In this document: in pieces, positions 3,424 to 25,174 of the stretch | Layout: each line of letters starts with the position of its first letter | How positions within the stretch are numbered: position 1 is the first letter of the stretch | From: Planktothrix serta PCC 8927 | Lineage (GTDB): Bacteria > Cyanobacteriota > Cyanobacteriia > Cyanobacteriales > Microcoleaceae | Assembly (NCBI RefSeq): GCF_900010725.2 | Contig: NZ_LR734865.1 | Span: 87,971 to 125,531, forward strand | Reading direction: 5' to 3' | Length of the DNA stretch: 37,561 bases | The notes under the pieces: model-generated | What the model was told of the DNA's origin: nothing | Databases searched by the model: none | What the model saw: the letters and a program-made list of their open reading frames with translations, nothing else | Made by a program: the position numbers and the translations under genes

Positions 3424-4332
3424 TTAACTAGGAGTTTCTTGTTTTTGTCTCAATTGTTGGATTTGTTCTATACTTAATCCGGTGGTTTGGCTGATGGTTT
3501 GATCATCTAATAAACCGATTAATTGTTGAGCAATTTCTAGTTTAGATTCTTGTTTACCTTGTTCAATACCTTGTTCAATACCTTGTTGAATGCCTTGTTT
3601 TAAAGCTTTTTCTCTAGCTAATCGAACTGCTTTTTTAATCGCATTACGTTGATCATAAATATAGATTTCACGTTTTTCTAAATCTTCGAGTTCTGCGGGG
3701 GTTAAGGTAGTTTCATTGGCAATAGTAAAGGCTTTTTGAAGTTGAGGAATATTTGCCATTGTTTCAGGAATAGTTTCTAAGGTTTTAGCACTTTTAATAA
3801 AATATATCCATTTATCGGTTAAGGTTTCTAACTCATTAATTGAGGCCTTAAATTTGGGAAGTTCTACAAAAACTAATTCTATATCATAAATCAGATAATC
3901 CACTAAAAACTCTTTTTCTTTTAAAATAAACCGAGAAATGACTTTATCCAGATTAGGGAACATCTCAAAATCCGTAATTGTAACGGCAATAACTGGATTT
4001 AATAAGGTGTAATCTTCGCCACTTTTTAACTGAATTGAATAGGCTTTAGCTGCATTGTATAAAATTCGTTTTTCAAATCCTTCTATATTCAAGATCTGCA
4101 TTTCAATAATAACGGTTTTATTCCCGGTTATTGTGGCTTTGACATCCAAATAAGTATCTTTAATCCCTCGGATTTTAGGAGCTTGATAGGGATTGAGAAT
4201 CGTTAAATCTTCAATAGCCGGATTTTCGGGATAAAGAATACTATTTAAAAAACTGATTAAAATATCTTTGCTATCTTCAGAGCCAAATATTTTTTTAAAG
4301 GCAAAGTCTGTTTTAGGATTAATGAATCGCAT
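3424..4332 (-). CDS. Rpn family PD-(D/E)XK nuclease / putative transposase
   Basis: Member of the Rpn (recombination-promoting nuclease, PDDEXK_2) family, very common in multicopy in filamentous cyanobacteria. The opening MRFINPKTDFAFKKIFG is the family signature. Catalytic candidates are Asp63 (in YLDVKA) and Glu77-x-Gln79 (in IIEMQI), which is the usual E-x-Q form of this family. The C-terminal third carries the typical repeated GIEQ motif (QGIEQGIEQGIEQGKQES), a slippage-prone run, then a helical tail. The frame is open from 4347, but an AGGAGA motif at 4338-4345 sits correctly before the ATG at 4332, so the shorter start (302 residues) is chosen. Rpn proteins promote RecA-independent recombination in E. 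coli; the role here is inferred. Confidence 0.88.
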   Translation of the reverse strand: MRFINPKTDFAFKKIFGSEDSKDILISFLNSILYPENPAIEDLTILNPYQAPKIRGIKDTYLDVKATITGNKTVIIEMQILNIEGFEKRILYNAAKAYSIQLKSGEDYTLLNPVIAVTITDFEMFPNLDKVISRFILKEKEFLVDYLIYDIELVFVELPKFKASINELETLTDKWIYFIKSAKTLETIPETMANIPQLQKAFTIANETTLTPAELEDLEKREIYIYDQRNAIKKAVRLAREKALKQGIQQGIEQGIEQGKQESKLEIAQQLIGLLDDQTISQTTGLSIEQIQQLRQKQETPS

Positions 4333-4347
4333 ATTAATTCTCCTCAT

Positions 4348-7812: not shown

Positions 7813-8175
7813 ATGAAATTTCAAACCTCCTTATTAGCGATCGCTTGTCTTGTTGGTACAGTAAGTATTTCTTTACCTGTTCAAGCTAATTCCTTACAGA
7901 ATACCCCCATGCAGATAGCTCAGTCTTCTGCACCTGAGAAGACTTATATGACTCCCCAAAGAAATACTAACGAAATTGCGGTTCAAATTGAGGATGGAGA
8001 GTTTTTCTTCGCGGGAATGTTAAAGCGGACTTCGGGCAATAAATTTATGGCTGAAGATAAACAAGTTCGTGTGATGTACGATAAAGATACAAGTCGAGTC
8101 GTTGTGATCAATGTCGTTACAGGAACAGAATTTTATAACTATATCTTCTCTACTGCGGATGAAGGATCGTTGTAA
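7813..8175 (+). CDS. Small secreted protein of unknown function
   Basis: 120 residues from the ATG at 7813. The frame is open from a TTG at 7801, but the ATG gives a textbook signal peptide: MKF, a hydrophobic core LLAIACLVGTVSISL, then a cleavage site near VQA|NS. The mature part is about 95 residues, with no cysteine and mostly predicted beta strands (IAVQIEDGEFFFAGML, KQVRVMYDKDT, RVVVINVVTGTEF). It is probably periplasmic or exported. I do not recognise the family. It stands alone, with AT-rich sequence upstream. Confidence 0.65.
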   Translation: MKFQTSLLAIACLVGTVSISLPVQANSLQNTPMQIAQSSAPEKTYMTPQRNTNEIAVQIEDGEFFFAGMLKRTSGNKFMAEDKQVRVMYDKDTSRVVVINVVTGTEFYNYIFSTADEGSL

Positions 8176-8400
8176 AAATAATGAGTAATCAGATAGGAAA
8201 TCCAGAAGTTATTGATATGACCCAGGACTCTTTGGATTCCTACCTGTGCGGGAATGATATTACCAAATGATAGTTAAGTCTTCAGGATCACGCCATAGGA
8301 ATAACAGCGTTTTTTAACCAATTACCGATTGCAAAATTATAAAAATCGTCTTTAGGGCTAATGGATGAGTCTATTGCCGATATTCAGGAAAACCTAACCT

Positions 8401-9273: not shown

Positions 9274-9360
9274 AAATTTTATTATAGAATTAATAATAAT
9301 TTAATTAATAACCTATCTATGATCTCTAATCAAGACTTTAGTTTAAGCTGTCCAATTCCT
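9274..9360 (+). pseudogene. Remnant of hypE 5' end and its promoter region
   Basis: This 87-bp stretch aligns without gaps to 14466-14552, which covers the WD40-J/hypE divergent intergenic region and the first 14 hypE codons; I count about 71 of 87 bases identical by eye. The remnant reads MISNQDFSLSCPIP where intact hypE reads [14 protein letters not shown], then stops one codon later. Both the start codon and reading frame are kept. Confidence 0.75.
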
Positions 9361-10971: not shown

Positions 10972-11357
10972 ATTTAATCTAACCGGGACACCTTAATGGA
11001 TCAACCCAATTGGTATCACACCGAGGTTCAGATTAGCGTTTAGCAATTAAGGATGTACTCGCGCACTGTAACCCGGTTCCCGTAAACTTCTAATTTTTTT
11101 TTGGGGGTCAAGGTACGAGTATTTTTTATATAAATAACCTTTATATAAAAAATTAATAATATTCGCTAAATTAATGTGAAAATGGAGATTACAACTCTTT
11201 CTTGTTTTTTAGGAATGCGATCGCACCCTTTGACTCCATTGATTTAAAAAAGTCTCATAGGCGTAGTTAATTCTTTGCATAACAGCGATCGCTTCTGATG
11301 TTATCATATATATTGATATTATATTTAATAACTCAGCTAATATAAAAGAGTAAAAAT
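10972..11357. other. Intergenic region with J-domain gene remnant
   Basis: AT-rich stretch between the HsdR-like remnant and the PUR-nuclease gene. It contains the J-domain tail described separately, two HIP1 sites (11217 and 11286 areas) and the promoter region of the rightward gene at 11358. An AGAG motif lies about 8 bases before that ATG. No other gene seen. Confidence 0.5.
11209..11299 (-). pseudogene. 3' tail of a WD40-J/DnaJ-type gene
   Basis: 11216-11299 matches 12655-12738, the end of the intact WD40-J gene, at about 81 of 84 bases by eye. It encodes [18 protein letters not shown] and further residues to RVRSHS, then a TAA at 11209-11211. The three differences all change amino acids (H to Y, E to Q, N to S). 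Everything upstream of helix III of the J domain is missing. It has its own stop, so it looks like the surviving end of a second gene copy. Confidence 0.8.
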
Positions 11358-12422
11358 ATGACAGAAAATTGGTTTTCTCCTGAAAAGAGGAATCTTCTTT
11401 TAGCAGAAAGATATTTTAGCGGTTCACATCATTATTTTTTTGAAGTCAAAGAAGCCAAAAATAGATCCAAATATATTATTATCGATCAACGAAAAAAGTT
11501 AGAAAATGAATTTATTGGTACCAAAATGCGTATTTTTGAAAATGAAATGCTTGAATTTCAAAGAATTTTGAATAAGCTGATTAATTTTTCCTTAAATGAC
11601 ACTTCTGTTACTGAAACCGATCACAATTATCATAATAATCAAATAGAATCTAATTTATCGCCAAACAATCTAATTTTTTTAGAAGAAAAATATTTTAGCA
11701 GTTCCCATTACTATTTCTTTGAGGTTAAACAATCAAAAAATGGTACTAAATATATTGTAATAGATCAAAGAAAAAAGTTAGAAAATGAATTTATTAGCAC
11801 CAAAATTCGTATTTTTAAGGATGAAATGCTTGAATTTCAGAGAGTTATGAATAAGTTAATGGCTTTTACTTTAAATGATAATTTTATTCCGAGTAAAATT
11901 TCAGATATTAACAAGGATAACCAGAATCAACAAATACAATTAGATTCAGACTTATCACCGAGATTTTTTGATAAAATTATCACAACAAATAACTGGAAAC
12001 AATTTGAAGAATATGCTTATTATTTACTCAAGTTATTGGGAATAGAGACAGTATATAATTTTACAGGAGAAAGACAAGCCGGAAAAGCTGATGGTTTTTT
12101 CAAAATTGGAAATTTAGCAGTTATTTATGATTGTACTCTTGATTTCCAGAATATAGAAAACAGTAAAAGTGAACAAATAAATAATTATTGTAATAAACTG
12201 AAACAAGGTAGTATTGAATTATCTGGAAGAACAACAGAAGAATTTTATAATCATCATAAACAAGTTTGGATTATTACCAGAGGAACAACTAGACAGATTA
12301 AATTAGTTAATTTAATTGAAGTCAAAGAAGTAGCTATTAACGATATTATGTATCTTTATCAAGAGCGATTGACAAGCAACATGAATAATCAGTCACTCGA
12401 AATAAAATTGCGAAATATCTAA
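11358..12422 (+). CDS. Two PUR-like nucleic-acid-binding repeats fused to a restriction-endonuclease-like domain
   Basis: Residues 18-80 and 111-173 are two copies of one module, about 47 of 64 residues identical by eye. The core is YFF-EVK-x-K-N, KYIxIDQRKK, TKxRIF and EMLEFQRxxNKL. This layout (aromatic strand, basic strand, then an acidic helix) resembles PUR-alpha/DUF3276 domains, which bind single-stranded DNA or RNA as a pair of repeats. A linker leads to residues about 212-340: WKQFEEYAYYLLKLLGIE, then AGKADGFF with Asp245 and LAVIYDCT with Asp258-x-Thr260, then VWIITRG. This looks like a PD-(D/E)XK or FokI/Mrr-type fold, although the usual Lys is Thr. The gene is strikingly AT-rich, suggesting transfer. 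Function is inferred: nucleic-acid recognition coupled to cleavage or binding. Family assignment was made without a search. Confidence 0.6.
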   Translation: MTENWFSPEKRNLLLAERYFSGSHHYFFEVKEAKNRSKYIIIDQRKKLENEFIGTKMRIFENEMLEFQRILNKLINFSLNDTSVTETDHNYHNNQIESNLSPNNLIFLEEKYFSSSHYYFFEVKQSKNGTKYIVIDQRKKLENEFISTKIRIFKDEMLEFQRVMNKLMAFTLNDNFIPSKISDINKDNQNQQIQLDSDLSPRFFDKIITTNNWKQFEEYAYYLLKLLGIETVYNFTGERQAGKADGFFKIGNLAVIYDCTLDFQNIENSKSEQINNYCNKLKQGSIELSGRTTEEFYNHHKQVWIITRGTTRQIKLVNLIEVKEVAINDIMYLYQERLTSNMNNQSLEIKLRNI

Positions 12423-12434
12423 ATTATGTTGTAA

Positions 12435-12560
12435 TATAGCAATCCGTGTAGGATTTGTGAAAAAGTTTTGTAGGGGTTTGGTCTCCAAACCCTCTTTGCG
12501 CCTGGGTTTGGAGACCAAACCCCTACGATAAAATATTACAACCTATTTAGGACTGCTATA
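12435..12560. mobile_element. MITE-like element with long perfect hairpin
   Basis: Outer ends are TATAGCAATCC (12435-12445) and GGACTGCTATA (12550-12560), near-perfect inverted repeats. GTTGTAATAT (12428-12437) and ATATTACAAC (12533-12542) add another inverted pair. The core is a perfect 23-bp stem: 12470-12492 against 12504-12526, with an 11-base loop. It has no coding capacity. The size (126 bp) and ends fit a non-autonomous miniature element; the core would also stop transcription from the upstream nuclease gene. Confidence 0.6.
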
Positions 12561-12641: not shown

Positions 12642-14447
12642 TCATTTTATTGATTGCGATCGCACCCTTTGATTCCATTCATTTAAAAAAGTCTCATAGG
12701 CGTGGTTAATTCTTTGCATAACAGCGATCGCTTCTGATTTAACGTTATAATCAGGATGATATTGTTTCGCTAATTGATAATAGGCTTGTTTGACTTGATT
12801 CGGTGTTGCCTTGGGATTTACTCCTAATACTTGCCACCAATTTTGATAACATTCAGATGCAATTAATTCCGGTAGACTTAATTGTTGATACCAGAGTTGT
12901 AAAATACCCTTTTTACTCCCACTAACTAATCGTTGACCATCGGGACTAAACACAACCGGAGAACAACCAGAGAGCGTTTGCAATAATTCCCCTGTTTTCC
13001 AATTCCATAATTTAACCGTTTGATCCACACTTCCACTCGCCAAAATTTGACTATTGGGACTCAAAGCTATAGAAAAAATAGCAGCAGAATGTCCGGTTAA
13101 TGTCCGAATTAATTGATAGGTTTTAAGATCCCAGACTTTAATTGTATTGTCAGCACTCGCACTGATTAAAGTTTGATCATCAGGACTGAATAAAACCGAA
13201 GTCACCCAGTTAGAATGTCCGGTTAAAACAATAGGATTTTCATAGGTTTTGATATTCCAAATTCTAATAGTTTTATCAGCACTCCCACTGGCTACAAATT
13301 GACTCTGAGAACAGATCGCTACAGACCAAACTCCATCAGTATGTCCGTTCAAAATTCGTTTAGATTGTCCCGTTTTAAAATTCCAAAGTCTAACGGTTTT
13401 ATCGCAACTTCCACTGATTAAAATTTGATGATCGGGACTAAATACAAGGGAGGTAATAATTCCCATATTTTTTTCGGGAAAATTTAGATCCAATAAAGTT
13501 CGATTTAGTTGTCGAGTCTGAAAATTCCAGAGGGTAATTCGACCATTAACACTTCCTGTAGCAACGATTTCTGAATTCGGACTAATAGCAACTGAATACA
13601 TCTCATAAGGCATAAACCAAGTATATTTTTTCTTAACTGTATTAACATCCCAAATGTGAATATTACGATCATCACTAGCACTGATCAAAGTTTGACTATC
13701 AGGACTAAAAGCCACCGCATGAATTGAATCTTGATGTCCGGCTAAACGCTGTGTTTCTGTCCACATTAAATCTGGTGAATGGGGACGAATAACAAGAGTA
13801 TGATTTTCAATATTAGGTTTTTCTGTTTTTTTTTGAGCAGATGATTTCTGTGGATCTTGAATATTTTGTTTAAGCTGTTTTAATTCATCCTCTAATTCTA
13901 AATCATTGAATTTTTGTTTTAATTTTTCTTCTTGAAATTCAGGAATAAGTTCCAAAACTTCTAATAACGCGGCGGTATAAAATTCCTGATCTAAAATCCG
14001 TTCTTCCATCCGGTCAAAGGCTTGAAACGCTGTTTCTCCGCTTCCAGCAGCATCAATTAATTGGGCAATACCATATAATCCTAACCCAACAATTCCGCCA
14101 AAAACTCCTAATGTTCCCATGCCAATTCCTACACCTGTTCCCGCAAAACCTAACCCCATTCCTCCCACAACCGAAGAAATTCCTACCCCAGAAATTGCCC
14201 CTAATCCTACTGCACCCCAGGCAATAGAATCCCCTTGATTAATGCCTCTAAATGCGCCATAAGTTGCAGCACCCGCCACCGCACCCACACCCATTAAGGG
14301 CATCATTCCTAACCCAATTCCCCCAAAACTTCCCACCAGTCCCACACCACCAATTGTGCTATAAATTCCTGCCCCACTCGCTGCACCGACGGTAACAAAT
14401 GTTGTACCAGTAGTTAAGTTTTCAGAGAAATTATAATAGCTTTTCAT
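12642..14447 (-). CDS. Membrane-associated WD40 propeller protein with C-terminal J domain
   Basis: From residue about 10 to 150 the sequence is a long Gly/Ala-rich hydrophobic region ([20 protein letters not shown] and similar), resembling glycine-zipper membrane helices. An acidic/Gln linker follows. Seven WD40 repeats occupy about 230-520, each ending in an LWN, IWD or LWY signature, enough for a closed propeller. A J domain closes the protein at about 533-596 with the HPD motif at 564-566, needed to stimulate Hsp70 (DnaK). The role is presumably recruiting DnaK to a membrane-bound partner. The long frame begins at 14474, but that ATG overlaps a TATAAT promoter box, and the copy at 9274 has lost the ATG while keeping the box. 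The next ATG (14447) is therefore chosen. Divergent from hypE. Confidence 0.82.
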
Positions 14448-14472
14448 GATTTTTTTAAGTTCCGTAAATTTC

Positions 14473-14500
14473 ATTATAGAATTGATAGTAACTCTATCAA
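14473..14500 (-). promoter_or_regulatory. Sigma-70-type promoter of the WD40-J gene
   Basis: On the minus strand TTGATA (14495-14500) and TATAAT (14473-14478) are 16 bases apart. The TATAAT box is conserved in the diverged duplicate at 9281-9286, and a weaker TTAATT occupies the -35 position there. Start of transcription would fall near 14466, downstream of the ATG at 14474. Confidence 0.55.
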
Positions 14501-14510
14501 TAACCTCTCT

Positions 14511-15557
14511 ATGACCTCTGATCCAGATTTTAGTTTAACTTGTCCCATTCCGATTCAACAATACCCTCATATTTTACTCGCTCATGGCGGTGGGGGTAAA
14601 CTCATGCGTCAATTAATTGATCAGATGTTTTTACCCACTTTTGGGCATCCAAATCAAGTTGAACATGATGCAGCTACCTTACAATTAAATGGAAATAAAA
14701 TAGCGTTTACAACGGATTCTTATGTCGTTAATCCCCTATTTTTTCCTGGGGGAGATATTGGTTCAATGGCTGTTCATGGAACCGTTAATGATTTAGCAAT
14801 GGCGGGGGCTCGTCCTTTATATTTAAGTGTGGGTTTTATTTTAGAAGAAGGTTTACCGATTCAAACCTTATGGGAAATTATTCTATCGATGAAACAAGCT
14901 GCCGAAAAAGCTCAGGTTAAAATCGTTACTGGAGATACTAAAGTTGTTGATAAAGGCAAGGGAGATGGGATTTTTATTAATACATCGGGTATCGGAATCA
15001 TTGAACATAATTTAACCATTAATCCCTTATCCGTTCAACCGGGAGATGCGGTTATTATTAATGGGGATTTGGGGCGACATGGGATTGCAATTATGGCGGT
15101 GCGGGAAGGATTAGAATTTGAAACAACAATAGAAAGTGATTCTGCACCTGTGGCGGATGTGGTTTTAGAGTTATTAGAGGCGGGAATAGAAATTCACTGT
15201 TTACGAGATTTAACACGAGGCGGTTTAGCAAGTACGTTAAATGAAATTGCTACTGCTGCTAAAGTTGAAATTGAAATTCAAGAAACAGCTATTAATGTAT
15301 TAGAAGAAGTCAAAGGAGCGTGTGAAATTTTAGGATTTGACCCCCTTTATGTTGCTAATGAAGGGCGGTTTGCGGTGTTTGTTCCTGAGAAAGATATTGA
15401 AAAAACTTTATCGATTTTACAGGCAAAAATACCCCAAGCAAGTTTAATTGGTTGCGTTAAACAAACGTCAACCCCTTTAGTTACAATGCAGAGTACAATT
15501 GGGGCTAAACGAATTATTGATATGTTGAGTGGAGAACAGTTACCTCGGATTTGTTAG
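14511..15557 (+). CDS. hypE: Hydrogenase maturation protein HypE
   Basis: HypE dehydrates the carbamoyl group received from HypF on its C-terminal cysteine to a thiocyanate, which supplies the CN ligands of the [NiFe]-hydrogenase active site. The sequence ends in PRIC with Cys348, the required terminal cysteine. The PurM/ThiL-like ATP-binding features are present: AHGGGGK near residue 24, [33 protein letters not shown], and [11 protein letters not shown] in the second half. Length matches the family. No other hyp or hox gene is in the window, so the gene is separated from the rest of the maturation set. It is transcribed divergently from the WD40-J gene from a 37-64-base shared region. Confidence 0.94.
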
Positions 15558-21312: not shown

Positions 21313-23379
21313 TTAAAAATCATATTCCACTTCTAAAATTTCCGTATATTCAAACTCATTTGAACTTTGATGCACTAAAGGATAACGCTCTCCTCCTAAT
21401 TCTATCCAATCTTCCTCACAATCATTTTTTGGAGAATTGTAGGATAAAACATACTCTCGTCCGATGCGTTTTTCCATCTCTTCTGCTACTTCTCCCCGCC
21501 ATTGAGTTTTAGTGACTAAAACAATTAATTGATTCGCTAATTGCGGAATAATATTCGCAATTTGTCGCCGATAAATTTCATCTAAACTTCCAAAAGGTGA
21601 GTCCATAACAATCGGAAAGGTACTACTATCAGGGCCCATTAAAGTGTTTTTTTGACTCCATTCTCTTACTCCCTCAATAATTCCCCCAATAAACGATAAA
21701 CTTAAAATCTGATTTTCCCCTGTTGAAGCGGCGACTTCCGCCTCCTCTCCGGCGGTCGTTTCCACTAACTTTAATTCATATTTTTCGGTTAATTTCGGTA
21801 AGTAAGGCGTAAAGGAAATTTGACTAAATAACTTTTGAACCCGCTTTTCTAATTGACAGCGAAACTGTTGGTCTAAACGGTCTTTTACTTCCGTTAAACG
21901 CAATATTGCATCCTGAGTTGCTGCAATTCTCCGTTGCACTAAAACTTGTTTTATTTCATTCATTTGTTGCTTATCAACTTGTCGAGACAAACTCTCAACC
22001 GTTGCTTTAAAATTCTCAATTTGTTGCTGATTTGAACCCGTTTCTCGATTCAATTCATTAATTTTGAGTTCAATTTCATCTAAGCGTTTTTGTAATTCTT
22101 GAATATTCTCATCGGGAAACTTTCTGAGTTTATTCGTAATACTATCCAGTTCATTTTCAATTCGTTGTAATTCTTCTCGATAAGTTTGAATATTCAGTTG
22201 TTGGCGATTAATTTCGTCCCAAAATTCAATCGCTTGTCTATCTAATTCATCGACTTGGGTACTTAACCGAATTGCTGTTTCATCAATATCAGCAGTTCCC
22301 GCTTGATTTAACCAATATTCTACTTGTTCACATCCCCTATCTCCAGGGATTAATTCAGACCCACAAATACAGTGCTTTTGTTCTAATAAATTTTGCACAA
22401 ACTGTTTTGTAATTCCAGTATTCAACTCCCCCCGTTCTCGCATTCCTGAAAATAAAGTTCTGAATTCAGCCGTTAATTCAGAGATTAAAACAGTATAGCC
22501 TTTTGTTGAAATTCCTCGATTAATAGCAGTATGAGCTTGATGGAGTTGTTCTCGTAGTAATTGTTTTTTCCGGTCTAATTCATCGCGTAATTGTTGTAAT
22601 TCCGCCGCACCACTTAACTCCATCAATCTCTCACTCAAGGTTGATTTAACCTGCTTTTGGTGCTCTAACTCTTGAGTAATTTCTGTCTGTCTTTGCAACA
22701 AACGTTCAATTTCCTGCTCCGCTTTTTTCTTCTCCTGTAAATACTTTTTAGTTTCAGGATTTCCAATCATTCCTAAATCAGTTTCTAAGGATTTTTTGGC
22801 TTCTCCTAAATGTTTAATTGCTCGATTTAATACTTCCACCCCTAATAACTCTTTTGTCGCATCAGCAATTTCTAGTTTGCGTTCATCTCTAACAATCTGC
22901 TCAATTCGTTCTCCATCAAAAAAGAAATATTGATGTAAACTTAAGGGTAAAATTCGATTAATAATTTCTTCAGGAGGGTGAGGAGGAATTCCCCAGCGTC
23001 CATCATCTCCCGCCACTTGCATCGATAATTCACTGCGACCGTGTTCTATCTCACTACCATTTTTATAAGCTCGACAAATCCGTTTGACTGAATATCGTTT
23101 ATGATCATGTTCAAAGATTAATTCTACCCAACATCCTATTGCTTTTCCGGGTTCCGATTCATTCAAAGCTCGTTTATTAACTAAATGTTCAGAAATAGCA
23201 AAGGCGGCACTAAATTTTTCATACAAAACCCAAGTAAAGGCATTCATTAATGTGGTTTTTCCCGCCCCATTATTGCCATGAATAACCGTTGTATTTCTTT
23301 CCCCATAACCCAAAGTAATTTCGGGAGTTTTCCCATAAAATTGCCGAAAATTACAGAGTTGAATAGAAATTAATCTCAT
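21313..23379 (-). CDS. DndD-like SMC/Rad50-type ATPase
   Basis: ABC-type ATPase built like DndD/Rad50. It has Walker A GNNGAGKTT (35-43) and a long coiled coil (about 185-285 and 375-505) with a cysteine hook CICG at 337-340 near its turn. The signature motif STGENQILSLSF (about 552-563) and Walker B PIVMDSPFGSLDE (589-601) complete the ATPase head. YFFFDGERIE (151-160) is also typical of DndD. DndD supports phosphorothioate DNA modification and has ATPase/nicking activity. The four-base ATGA overlap with the upstream small gene shows translational coupling. dndC, dndE and dndB are absent here, so the system is either partial, dispersed or doing something else. Confidence 0.82.
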   Translation of the reverse strand: MRLISIQLCNFRQFYGKTPEITLGYGERNTTVIHGNNGAGKTTLMNAFTWVLYEKFSAAFAISEHLVNKRALNESEPGKAIGCWVELIFEHDHKRYSVKRICRAYKNGSEIEHGRSELSMQVAGDDGRWGIPPHPPEEIINRILPLSLHQYFFFDGERIEQIVRDERKLEIADATKELLGVEVLNRAIKHLGEAKKSLETDLGMIGNPETKKYLQEKKKAEQEIERLLQRQTEITQELEHQKQVKSTLSERLMELSGAAELQQLRDELDRKKQLLREQLHQAHTAINRGISTKGYTVLISELTAEFRTLFSGMRERGELNTGITKQFVQNLLEQKHCICGSELIPGDRGCEQVEYWLNQAGTADIDETAIRLSTQVDELDRQAIEFWDEINRQQLNIQTYREELQRIENELDSITNKLRKFPDENIQELQKRLDEIELKINELNRETGSNQQQIENFKATVESLSRQVDKQQMNEIKQVLVQRRIAATQDAILRLTEVKDRLDQQFRCQLEKRVQKLFSQISFTPYLPKLTEKYELKLVETTAGEEAEVAASTGENQILSLSFIGGIIEGVREWSQKNTLMGPDSSTFPIVMDSPFGSLDEIYRRQIANIIPQLANQLIVLVTKTQWRGEVAEEMEKRIGREYVLSYNSPKNDCEEDWIELGGERYPLVHQSSNEFEYTEILEVEYDF

Positions 23380-23615
23380 TTCACCACATCCTTAATAATT
23401 TTGAGAATATCATCATTAATATTTCGCGGATTTTTCATATATAATTTATCTCGTTCTGCTTGTAAAACCCGTTCAATAATTTCTTGCACTTCTGGAGAAG
23501 CATTGGTAATCGGGTCTTGAGCCTCTTTCGGATTAATATTATCCCCATAACTAGATTTTTTTTCAGCAAAAACATTAGCAATCGCCGTAATCAAACTTTC
23601 AGAATATTTAAACAT
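23376..23615 (-). CDS. Small protein coupled to the DndD-like ATPase
   Basis: 79 residues from the ATG at 23615 (MFKYSESLITAIANVFAEKK), largely helical with a charged tail. The frame is open from a TTG at 23699, but GGGGA lies about 9 bases upstream of the internal ATG. Its TGA overlaps the DndD-like ATG. No motif of DndE is visible. Small helical proteins of this kind occur beside DNA-modification ATPases, so an accessory or subunit role is inferred from coupling alone. Confidence 0.6.
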   Translation of the reverse strand: MFKYSESLITAIANVFAEKKSSYGDNINPKEAQDPITNASPEVQEIIERVLQAERDKLYMKNPRNINDDILKIIKDVVK

Positions 23616-23803
23616 TTTAATTATCCCCGTAGGATGGCAATCGCCACTATACTCAATATTACAAGATTTTGTCAATTTTGAAAATATAGCAATCAGCAAG
23701 AAGCCTGTTTACAACTTCATTTGTGTCTTTGTGTCTTTGTGGTTAAATTAGACCTGACCCTTCTCAATATCCCAGCACCCAATAGCATCAACCCTAAATA
23801 GGA

Positions 23804-25174
23804 TTATAAATCTAATAACCCATATCGTTTTTGTAACTGAAGTAATTTTAATCTCGCCTCCCCAGCATTATCGGCTAAATTGGCAAATTCTAAAAACCGT
23901 TTTAACTCTTTTCTTAATAAATTGCGTTCAACTTCTAAGGTATTTCGCTCTAAATCTGGAGGTAAAACAATCATATCAAATAACGTTGCTCGTTCTTTCC
24001 CTGGATGGGGTCTTAAAATTCTACCCCGTCGTTGAATAAATTGTCGAGGATTACAACTACTGGCTAAAATTACGGCATTTTGAATCGCTGGAATATCAAC
24101 GCCTTCATCTAAACAGCGAATTGCAACTAATCCTTGTAATTCTCCTTGTTCAAATTGTTGACGTAATTTTTCCCGTTCAATTAACGGCGTTTCTGCGGTA
24201 TAAGTATTCACCCGATAGCCTAATTCTGACCCTAATAATTCAACAGTTGCTTCTAATTGTCGAGGAGAATAATCCTCTAAGGTTTCTACACTTCCATCCC
24301 CACAATAAAATAAAGTATGAGTTGTTTGTAACCGGGTTTTCATTAACTGGCGTAACGCATCTAATTTATTAGTTGCTGATGCAATTAATCGAGATCTTTG
24401 AATTAATAAAGCTGTAATGGTTTCGTTATTTTCCCAGTTTTTATTATCTTCCATTAACGCCCAACCAATCCGAGTAGTTAATCGATGATAAGCTCGACTT
24501 TCTGCTTCCGTTAATTCGACTAAAATCGGATAATATAAATACCGAACTAATGCGCCTTGACGAATTGCTTCTGCTAGAGTTAATTCCGGTTGTAAAACAG
24601 GCCCAAAATAGTTTAAAATCGCATCGGTTCCACTGTCATCAAAATGCCGTTCAGGAGTCGCAGAAAGGGCTAATCTTAAGCCAATATTTCGAGGTAAACT
24701 TTCCTCTAACCGAGGACTCCCTAAATTATGGGCTTCATCTCCCACCATTAACGTTTTTTCGGGAAAATAACGGATTTGAGATTGAAATCCTTCTGAAATT
24801 AATGTAGAATTAGTGGTAATAATTGTTAAAAACGGTTGATATCCGGCTCTTAATTGATATAATTCATTAGATAACTGTCGTTGCCAATACTGCACACTTT
24901 CAAAGGCTAAAATCGGGTTAAAATTAAATTTTTCCGCCTCTTTTGCCCATTGGGTAACTAAATGGCGATAGGGACAAACAATAATTAACGCTTGTAAACC
25001 AATTTTCTGATATAATTCAGTGGCGATCGCTAAAGCTGTAATGGTTTTACCGCTTCCTGTTGCCATTTTTAACGTTCCCCGCCCCCGATTCGCAAACCAG
25101 TTATTAACTGCTTGCTGTTGATAGGCTCGTAGATGCAATGAAGGTGGAATTTGAGGAATACAGTTATCAGTCAT
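23804..25174 (-). CDS. DEAH-box helicase, phosphorothioation-linked restriction type
   Basis: Superfamily 2 helicase of about 456 residues: Walker A ATGSGKT (38-44), DEAH (146-149), motif III SATPER (171-176), CLDEGVDIP (354-362) and motif VI QRRGR (381-385). Order and size fit the family named DNA phosphorothioation system restriction enzyme (TIGR04095), usually found with dnd genes; this is recalled, not searched. No nuclease domain is visible. It is the first gene of the set helicase, small protein, DndD-like, with 188 bases before the second gene. The first codons (MTDN) arise from a 5' array of CAGTTATCAG repeats, so the N-terminal residues may be recent. Confidence 0.78.
   Translation of the reverse strand: MTDNCIPQIPPSLHLRAYQQQAVNNWFANRGRGTLKMATGSGKTITALAIATELYQKIGLQALIIVCPYRHLVTQWAKEAEKFNFNPILAFESVQYWQRQLSNELYQLRAGYQPFLTIITTNSTLISEGFQSQIRYFPEKTLMVGDEAHNLGSPRLEESLPRNIGLRLALSATPERHFDDSGTDAILNYFGPVLQPELTLAEAIRQGALVRYLYYPILVELTEAESRAYHRLTTRIGWALMEDNKNWENNETITALLIQRSRLIASATNKLDALRQLMKTRLQTTHTLFYCGDGSVETLEDYSPRQLEATVELLGSELGYRVNTYTAETPLIEREKLRQQFEQGELQGLVAIRCLDEGVDIPAIQNAVILASSCNPRQFIQRRGRILRPHPGKERATLFDMIVLPPDLERNTLEVERNLLRKELKRFLEFANLADNAGEARLKLLQLQKRYGLLDL

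Follow-up and report, generated by a model that had tools for sequence, protein, structure and literature searches.

A Planktothrix gene joining two PUR repeats to a nuclease-like C-terminal domain, and its relatives carrying cold-shock domains

Among the described systems closest to the gene reported here, repeats I and II of PURA (Pur-alpha) and the Borrelia protein Bpur (DUF3276, PurA) consist of two repeats, each with four strands and a helix, packed into one domain. In the binding data given in PMC3764826, Bpur shows its best affinity for RNA (13 nM), followed by double-stranded DNA (dsDNA; 130 nM) and single-stranded DNA (ssDNA; 390 nM), and prefers purine-rich strands; Pur-alpha, according to passages of PMC4764581, uses K138, N140, R142, and F145 and unwinds short duplexes. 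Cold-shock domains (CSDs), for their part, generally bind RNA, with ssDNA binding also possible, and in the CoCoNuT type IV systems they are combined with PD-(D/E)xK nucleases with predicted RNA targets, as set out in sections of PMC11090510. We analyzed a window of 37,561 nt from Planktothrix serta PCC 8927 (Cyanobacteriales; contig NZ_LR734865.1, positions 87,971 to 125,531, forward strand), in which a single open reading frame, lying exactly where the original prediction had placed it, encodes two PUR repeats, a linker, and a C-terminal nuclease-like domain (Table 1). Whereas the published PUR proteins compared have no nuclease domain, here two closely similar repeats are fused to a nuclease-like one, and whereas CoCoNuT systems are multigene, McrBC-like GTPase systems, this is a single gene without a GTPase.

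The new point is the modularity of the family, in which PUR repeats and CSDs are exchanged in front of one C-terminal domain. A C-terminal profile search over 388 genomes of the window's order gave matches in 26, three of which (G147, G181, and G276) contained fragments only. The search for the same fusion in other cyanobacteria, proposed beforehand as a check, found the PUR-type fusion in 9 of the 388 genomes, with two repeats in 4 (all of the window's genus) and one repeat in 5; among the latter, G630 carries an in-frame stop and G588 has no start codon at the expected place. Fusions to one to three CSDs were present in 13 genomes, and in G374 the contig begins inside the C-terminal domain and hence leaves the N terminus unseen. 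The Pfam CSD model scored above its cut-off in 11 of the 13 CSD-type proteins scanned (L052 fell under it, with an E value of 0.0075, and L006 gave no match). A CSD-unit profile, built from eight units of five family proteins that therefore match by construction, recognized units in each of the 12 CSD rows used for the tree, three of them in L051, and in no PUR row above the inclusion line. In a sample of 386 genomes of the phylum, matches were confined to the same order (14 by protein and 13 by profile).

The tree of the C-terminal domain was midpoint rooted and omitted the fragments, the split G519 gene, and two duplicate records, L038 and L043. It separated 10 PUR rows from 12 CSD rows by one branch (100/100; 200/200 bootstrap trees). 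Since the two types lie on opposite sides of that branch, a single exchange of the N-terminal reader suffices. When a PUR profile was run over 378 genomes of the order, strong matches were obtained only in the nine fusion genomes and at a relic in G548, with partial matches in ten further genomes (E values of 9e-4 to 9e-3), and no stand-alone PUR gene was seen among the 378. The gene is undergoing loss in some lineages: Crocosphaera copies are broken or lack a start (L018, 8190-8192; L020, around 7998), and stop-bearing fragments (L012, L013, and L014) occur in three genomes of family f5.

Judging by sequence and structure prediction, the N-terminal repeats almost certainly have the PUR fold. 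The predicted identity of about 73% was recovered in a gap-free alignment (73.0%), whereas 10,000 shuffled versions of the second segment gave 4.7 matches of 63 on average and never more than 14; at the DNA level, the repeat spans 215 nt with 81% identity, the copies being 279 nt apart. The assignment to PUR held as well, through a DUF3276 match (24.7 bits for the whole protein against a cut-off of 23.1, and 30.0 bits for the N-terminal part alone), Borrelia PUR structures, and a match to PURA repeats I and II; the single-PUR relatives L003, L019, L020, and L050 score under the DUF3276 cut-off. Secondary structure was predicted as strands at residues 13 to 60 and a helix at 61 to 79 in repeat 1, and as strands at 109 to 153 and a helix at 154 to 172 in repeat 2, and the PUR arrangement of four antiparallel strands plus a helix per repeat, with the two repeats intertwined, was found. 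K31, K34, K38, and Y39, kept in 11/11 repeat rows, lie in the loop that by eye corresponds to the K138-N140-R142-F145 region described for Pur-alpha in passages of PMC4764581. By analogy with Bpur and Pur-alpha, the repeats may bind RNA, ssDNA, or dsDNA.

The high identity of the repeats had been taken as a sign of recent internal duplication, a view that did not hold at the scale of species. Repeat 1 and repeat 2 differ by 0.12 to 0.16 nonsynonymous (dN) and 0.58 to 0.80 synonymous (dS) substitutions per site, against a whole-gene dS of at most 0.10 among the four double-PUR carriers. The repeat tree separated the eight repeats found in double-PUR proteins from five single repeats (90/93) and placed the four second repeats in one group (100/100). 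The contrast in dS and the grouping of the second repeats indicate that the duplication is older than the split of the carriers, and a very recent duplication was accordingly rejected. Both PUR copies are under purifying selection. From small counts, dN/dS was roughly 0.1 to 0.3 for the C-terminal domain, and several pairs gave linker values close to or exceeding 1.

The C-terminal domain is likely, on moderate evidence, to adopt a PD-(D/E)XK fold. Both D245 and D258-x-T260, picked out in the original prediction, proved invariant in the family rows. What had not been remarked on is that threonine occupies the place of the motif III lysine in every one of the 23 rows, so that the domain departs from the canonical PD...(D/E)xK pattern although its two acidic residues do not vary. 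Because an invariant lysine sits on the next helix, as in published variants, we describe the domain as one that works like PD-(D/E)XK nucleases rather than as a canonical member. The Mrr_cat profile (PF04471) of type IV endonucleases aligned in register on three motifs, with a register above that of all controls; the family has D-C-T where the Mrr rows of the order have Q-x-K, and the score remained under the Pfam threshold (12.9 against 21 bits). In the VIA realignment, the top entries were type II restriction enzymes in 10 of 10 cases, with BspD6I/FokI matched. These type IIS cleavage domains nevertheless differ from the family, which shows no sequence-level match to them, has DxT instead of DxK, is not accompanied by a traveling modification methylase, and binds through PUR repeats or CSDs instead of a DNA recognition domain.

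The motifs, the Mrr_cat profile, and VIA agreed with the predicted PD-(D/E)XK/FokI-like C terminus, whereas the Foldseek outcome and a low-confidence model weigh against it. The model of the domain, made from an alignment of five rows, had a pLDDT of only 60.9 and showed helix, two strands, helix, and strands, with the first strand absent; Foldseek returned no restriction enzyme among the matches listed (best 50 of 105), and the C-terminal alignments, run as profiles against the PDB, gave no significant match. The low model confidence and the lack of a significant Foldseek or PDB profile match would fit an unrelated fold in which D...DxT merely resembles PD-(D/E)XK, but the order of the motifs, the Mrr_cat register, and the VIA result agree by different methods, and we consider such a coincidence quite improbable. 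No model of Pfam, NCBIfam, or PADLOC passed its cut-off for the domain; the NCBIfam search gave no match, and a PHROGs search gave nothing under an E value of 0.009. DUF1626/PDDEXK_10 (PF07788) resembles the family in its motif III threonine and its basic residues on the motif IV helix, as described in passages of PMC1913061, but its own N terminus is a coiled coil rather than PUR or CSD; it gave no Pfam match and no profile similarity to six cyanobacterial members (hhalign P of 0.93), and was rejected as the nearest family.

Table 1. Features of the gene and of the adjoining restriction remnant, in window coordinates
Feature	Residues or length	Position	Strand	Evidence or remark
Whole gene: two PUR repeats, linker, C-terminal nuclease-like domain	354 aa	11358..12422	+	ATG start
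PUR repeat 1	18-80	11409..11597	+	46/63 identity to repeat 2; DUF3276; PURA repeat I-II match
PUR repeat 2	111-173	11688..11876	+	DUF3276 best stretch 118-191; Borrelia PUR 3nm7/3n8b
C-terminal PD-(D/E)XK-like domain	~205-354	11970..12419	+	Conserved unit behind differing N-terminal domains; Mrr_cat profile; VIA match BspD6I/FokI
Putative motif I	E217	12006..12008	+	22/22 rows; 23rd row cut before E217
Putative motif II	D245	12090..12092	+	23/23 family rows
Putative motif III, Thr at usual Lys position	D258-C259-T260	12129..12137	+	23/23 rows; aligns with Q-x-K of Mrr_cat
Putative motif IV with migrated lysine	K270, Q273, Y277	12165..12188	+	Each 23/23 rows; predicted helix 268-283
HsdR N-terminal piece	313 aa	10030-10971		PF04313, E 7.1e-25

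As to function, the ligand common to PUR and cold-shock readers is RNA or single strands, and a nuclease directed at RNA or single strands is therefore proposed. A stand-alone, two-part enzyme of this kind is our leading reading, to which we give an even chance; that the C-terminal domain is catalytic at all is somewhat more probable. For the ligand, stoichiometry, and cellular role of the fusion protein, we infer the following. The two PUR repeats would fold onto each other as one PUR domain, like metazoan PURA repeats I and II, and this domain would grip RNA or single strands of nucleic acid, probably rich in purines. The Mrr/FokI-type PD-(D/E)XK domain, tethered by a flexible linker (approximately residues 174 to 204), would cut the bound or a neighboring strand with a rearranged active site, where E217, D245, and D258 bind the metal and K270 on the next helix replaces the motif lysine. 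Single-repeat relatives would have to dimerize through PUR as Bpur does, which would pair two nuclease domains, and the internal duplication would have led from two nuclease domains per PUR domain to one. More tentatively, and with the odds against it, the family may comprise single-protein RNA- or R-loop-directed nucleases with interchangeable PUR and CSD readers, in which duplication of PUR turned a two-cutter obligate dimer into a one-cutter monomer, re-running the metazoan PURA step.

A domain that keeps the PD-(D/E)XK fold without being catalytic would explain the invariant threonine at motif III; it would serve as a second nucleic acid-binding or dimerization module, the whole protein being an RNA- or ssDNA-binding regulator. 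Some CoCoNuT CnuC proteins with CSDs, according to sections of PMC11090510, probably keep an inactivated PD-(D/E)xK domain for nucleic acid binding, and the family stably adjoins housekeeping genes in several lineages. Nevertheless, the invariance of E217, D245, D258, K270, Q273, and Y277 in both subfamilies goes beyond the needs of a mere binding surface, and there are published precedents for a migrated lysine, so we regard an inactive domain as rather unlikely.

Within the window's genus, the gene is carried by 4 of the 10 genomes, always beside the same WD40-DnaJ gene, itself present at high identity in 9 of the 10. The window is variable from 8.2 to 12.6 kb: in G545 and G603, approximately 100 bp separates window 8001-8179 from the WD40 gene end, and G649 joins window 9357 directly to 12652. 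Relic direct repeats of the WD40-DnaJ 3' end (11206-11310 and 12645-12749; 89%) and of its 5' end with the start of the next gene (9274-9359 and 14466-14551; 83%) mark a rearranging spot. In G548, a 101-bp relic of the second PUR repeat with 95% identity (L058, 14317-14417) is separated from the intact gene by 3.6 kb. Downstream of the gene, a 122-bp palindrome resembling a miniature inverted-repeat transposable element (12437-12558) has the ends TAGCA[A/G]TCC and a TA duplication (12435-12436 and 12559-12560); L017 and L058 lack it at the corresponding site, and it has 60 matches in its own genome, the two strands of one palindrome being counted separately. A PD-(D/E)XK nuclease family transposase gene lies at 3424-4347 (PF12784, E value of 1.1e-52; GC content of 31.3%).

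The predicted position beside restriction genes and gene remnants was correct, given that the HsdR N-terminal piece and short relics of neighboring genes adjoin the gene. In G548, genes for a control protein, a type II restriction enzyme, and a C5 methyltransferase adjoin the PUR gene, the same clusters occur in G571, and G261 has a cut HsdS at the gene's locus. PbeC-like (PADLOC E value of 0) and PbeA-like (E value of 2e-165; model positions 244 to 681, the C-terminal part only) genes at window 21313-25174 are probably an incomplete phosphorothioation-type defense locus, the system name being that of PADLOC. An antiphage role, in which PUR or CSD would sense foreign or damaged single strands and unleash the nuclease, draws on this setting, namely, the patchy presence at a variable, restriction-rich spot and PbeC/PbeA-like genes 9 to 13 kb away. 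However, the restriction-rich neighborhood is not a rule in other families. Outside the genus, inspection by eye showed chiefly housekeeping genes or toxin-antitoxin-like pairs next to the gene, and these neighbors differ between families. Leaving aside the family itself, the most widespread protein cluster was shared by no more than 5 of 24 loci, so a conserved operon partner was rejected. No PADLOC family matches the protein at an E value of ≤1, and the family is absent from 50,697 phage records, 72,556 plasmid records, and the viral collection searched, whereby a phage or plasmid gene was also rejected. We regard a defense role as doubtful. The recurrence of the same neighbors within families suggests vertical inheritance.

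The gene is as AT-rich as had been stated: its GC content of 26.3% is the lowest among 18 open reading frames measured, the window as a whole having 38.5%. The same holds family-wide, since in each of the 21 relatives measured the gene is poorer in GC than the rest of its locus, independently of how GC-rich the surroundings are. AT-richness therefore has no bearing on import or defense and is no sign of recent import, which was rejected.

In line with the remark that the fused architecture was unfamiliar, no publication on a PUR-nuclease fusion was found in the open-licence literature, among the matches listed. The published bacterial PUR proteins considered are small binding proteins, and a cutting domain, if true, would be the first catalytic partner of PUR. 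One- and two-repeat forms occur in near relatives with the same C-terminal domain, which makes the effect of a PURA-like repeat fusion testable, and the C-terminal domain represents an unnamed family with an active-site variant worth testing. Finally, the clean swap between PUR and cold-shock readers indicates that what both bind, RNA or single strands, outweighs the fold of the reader, and it points to the substrate.
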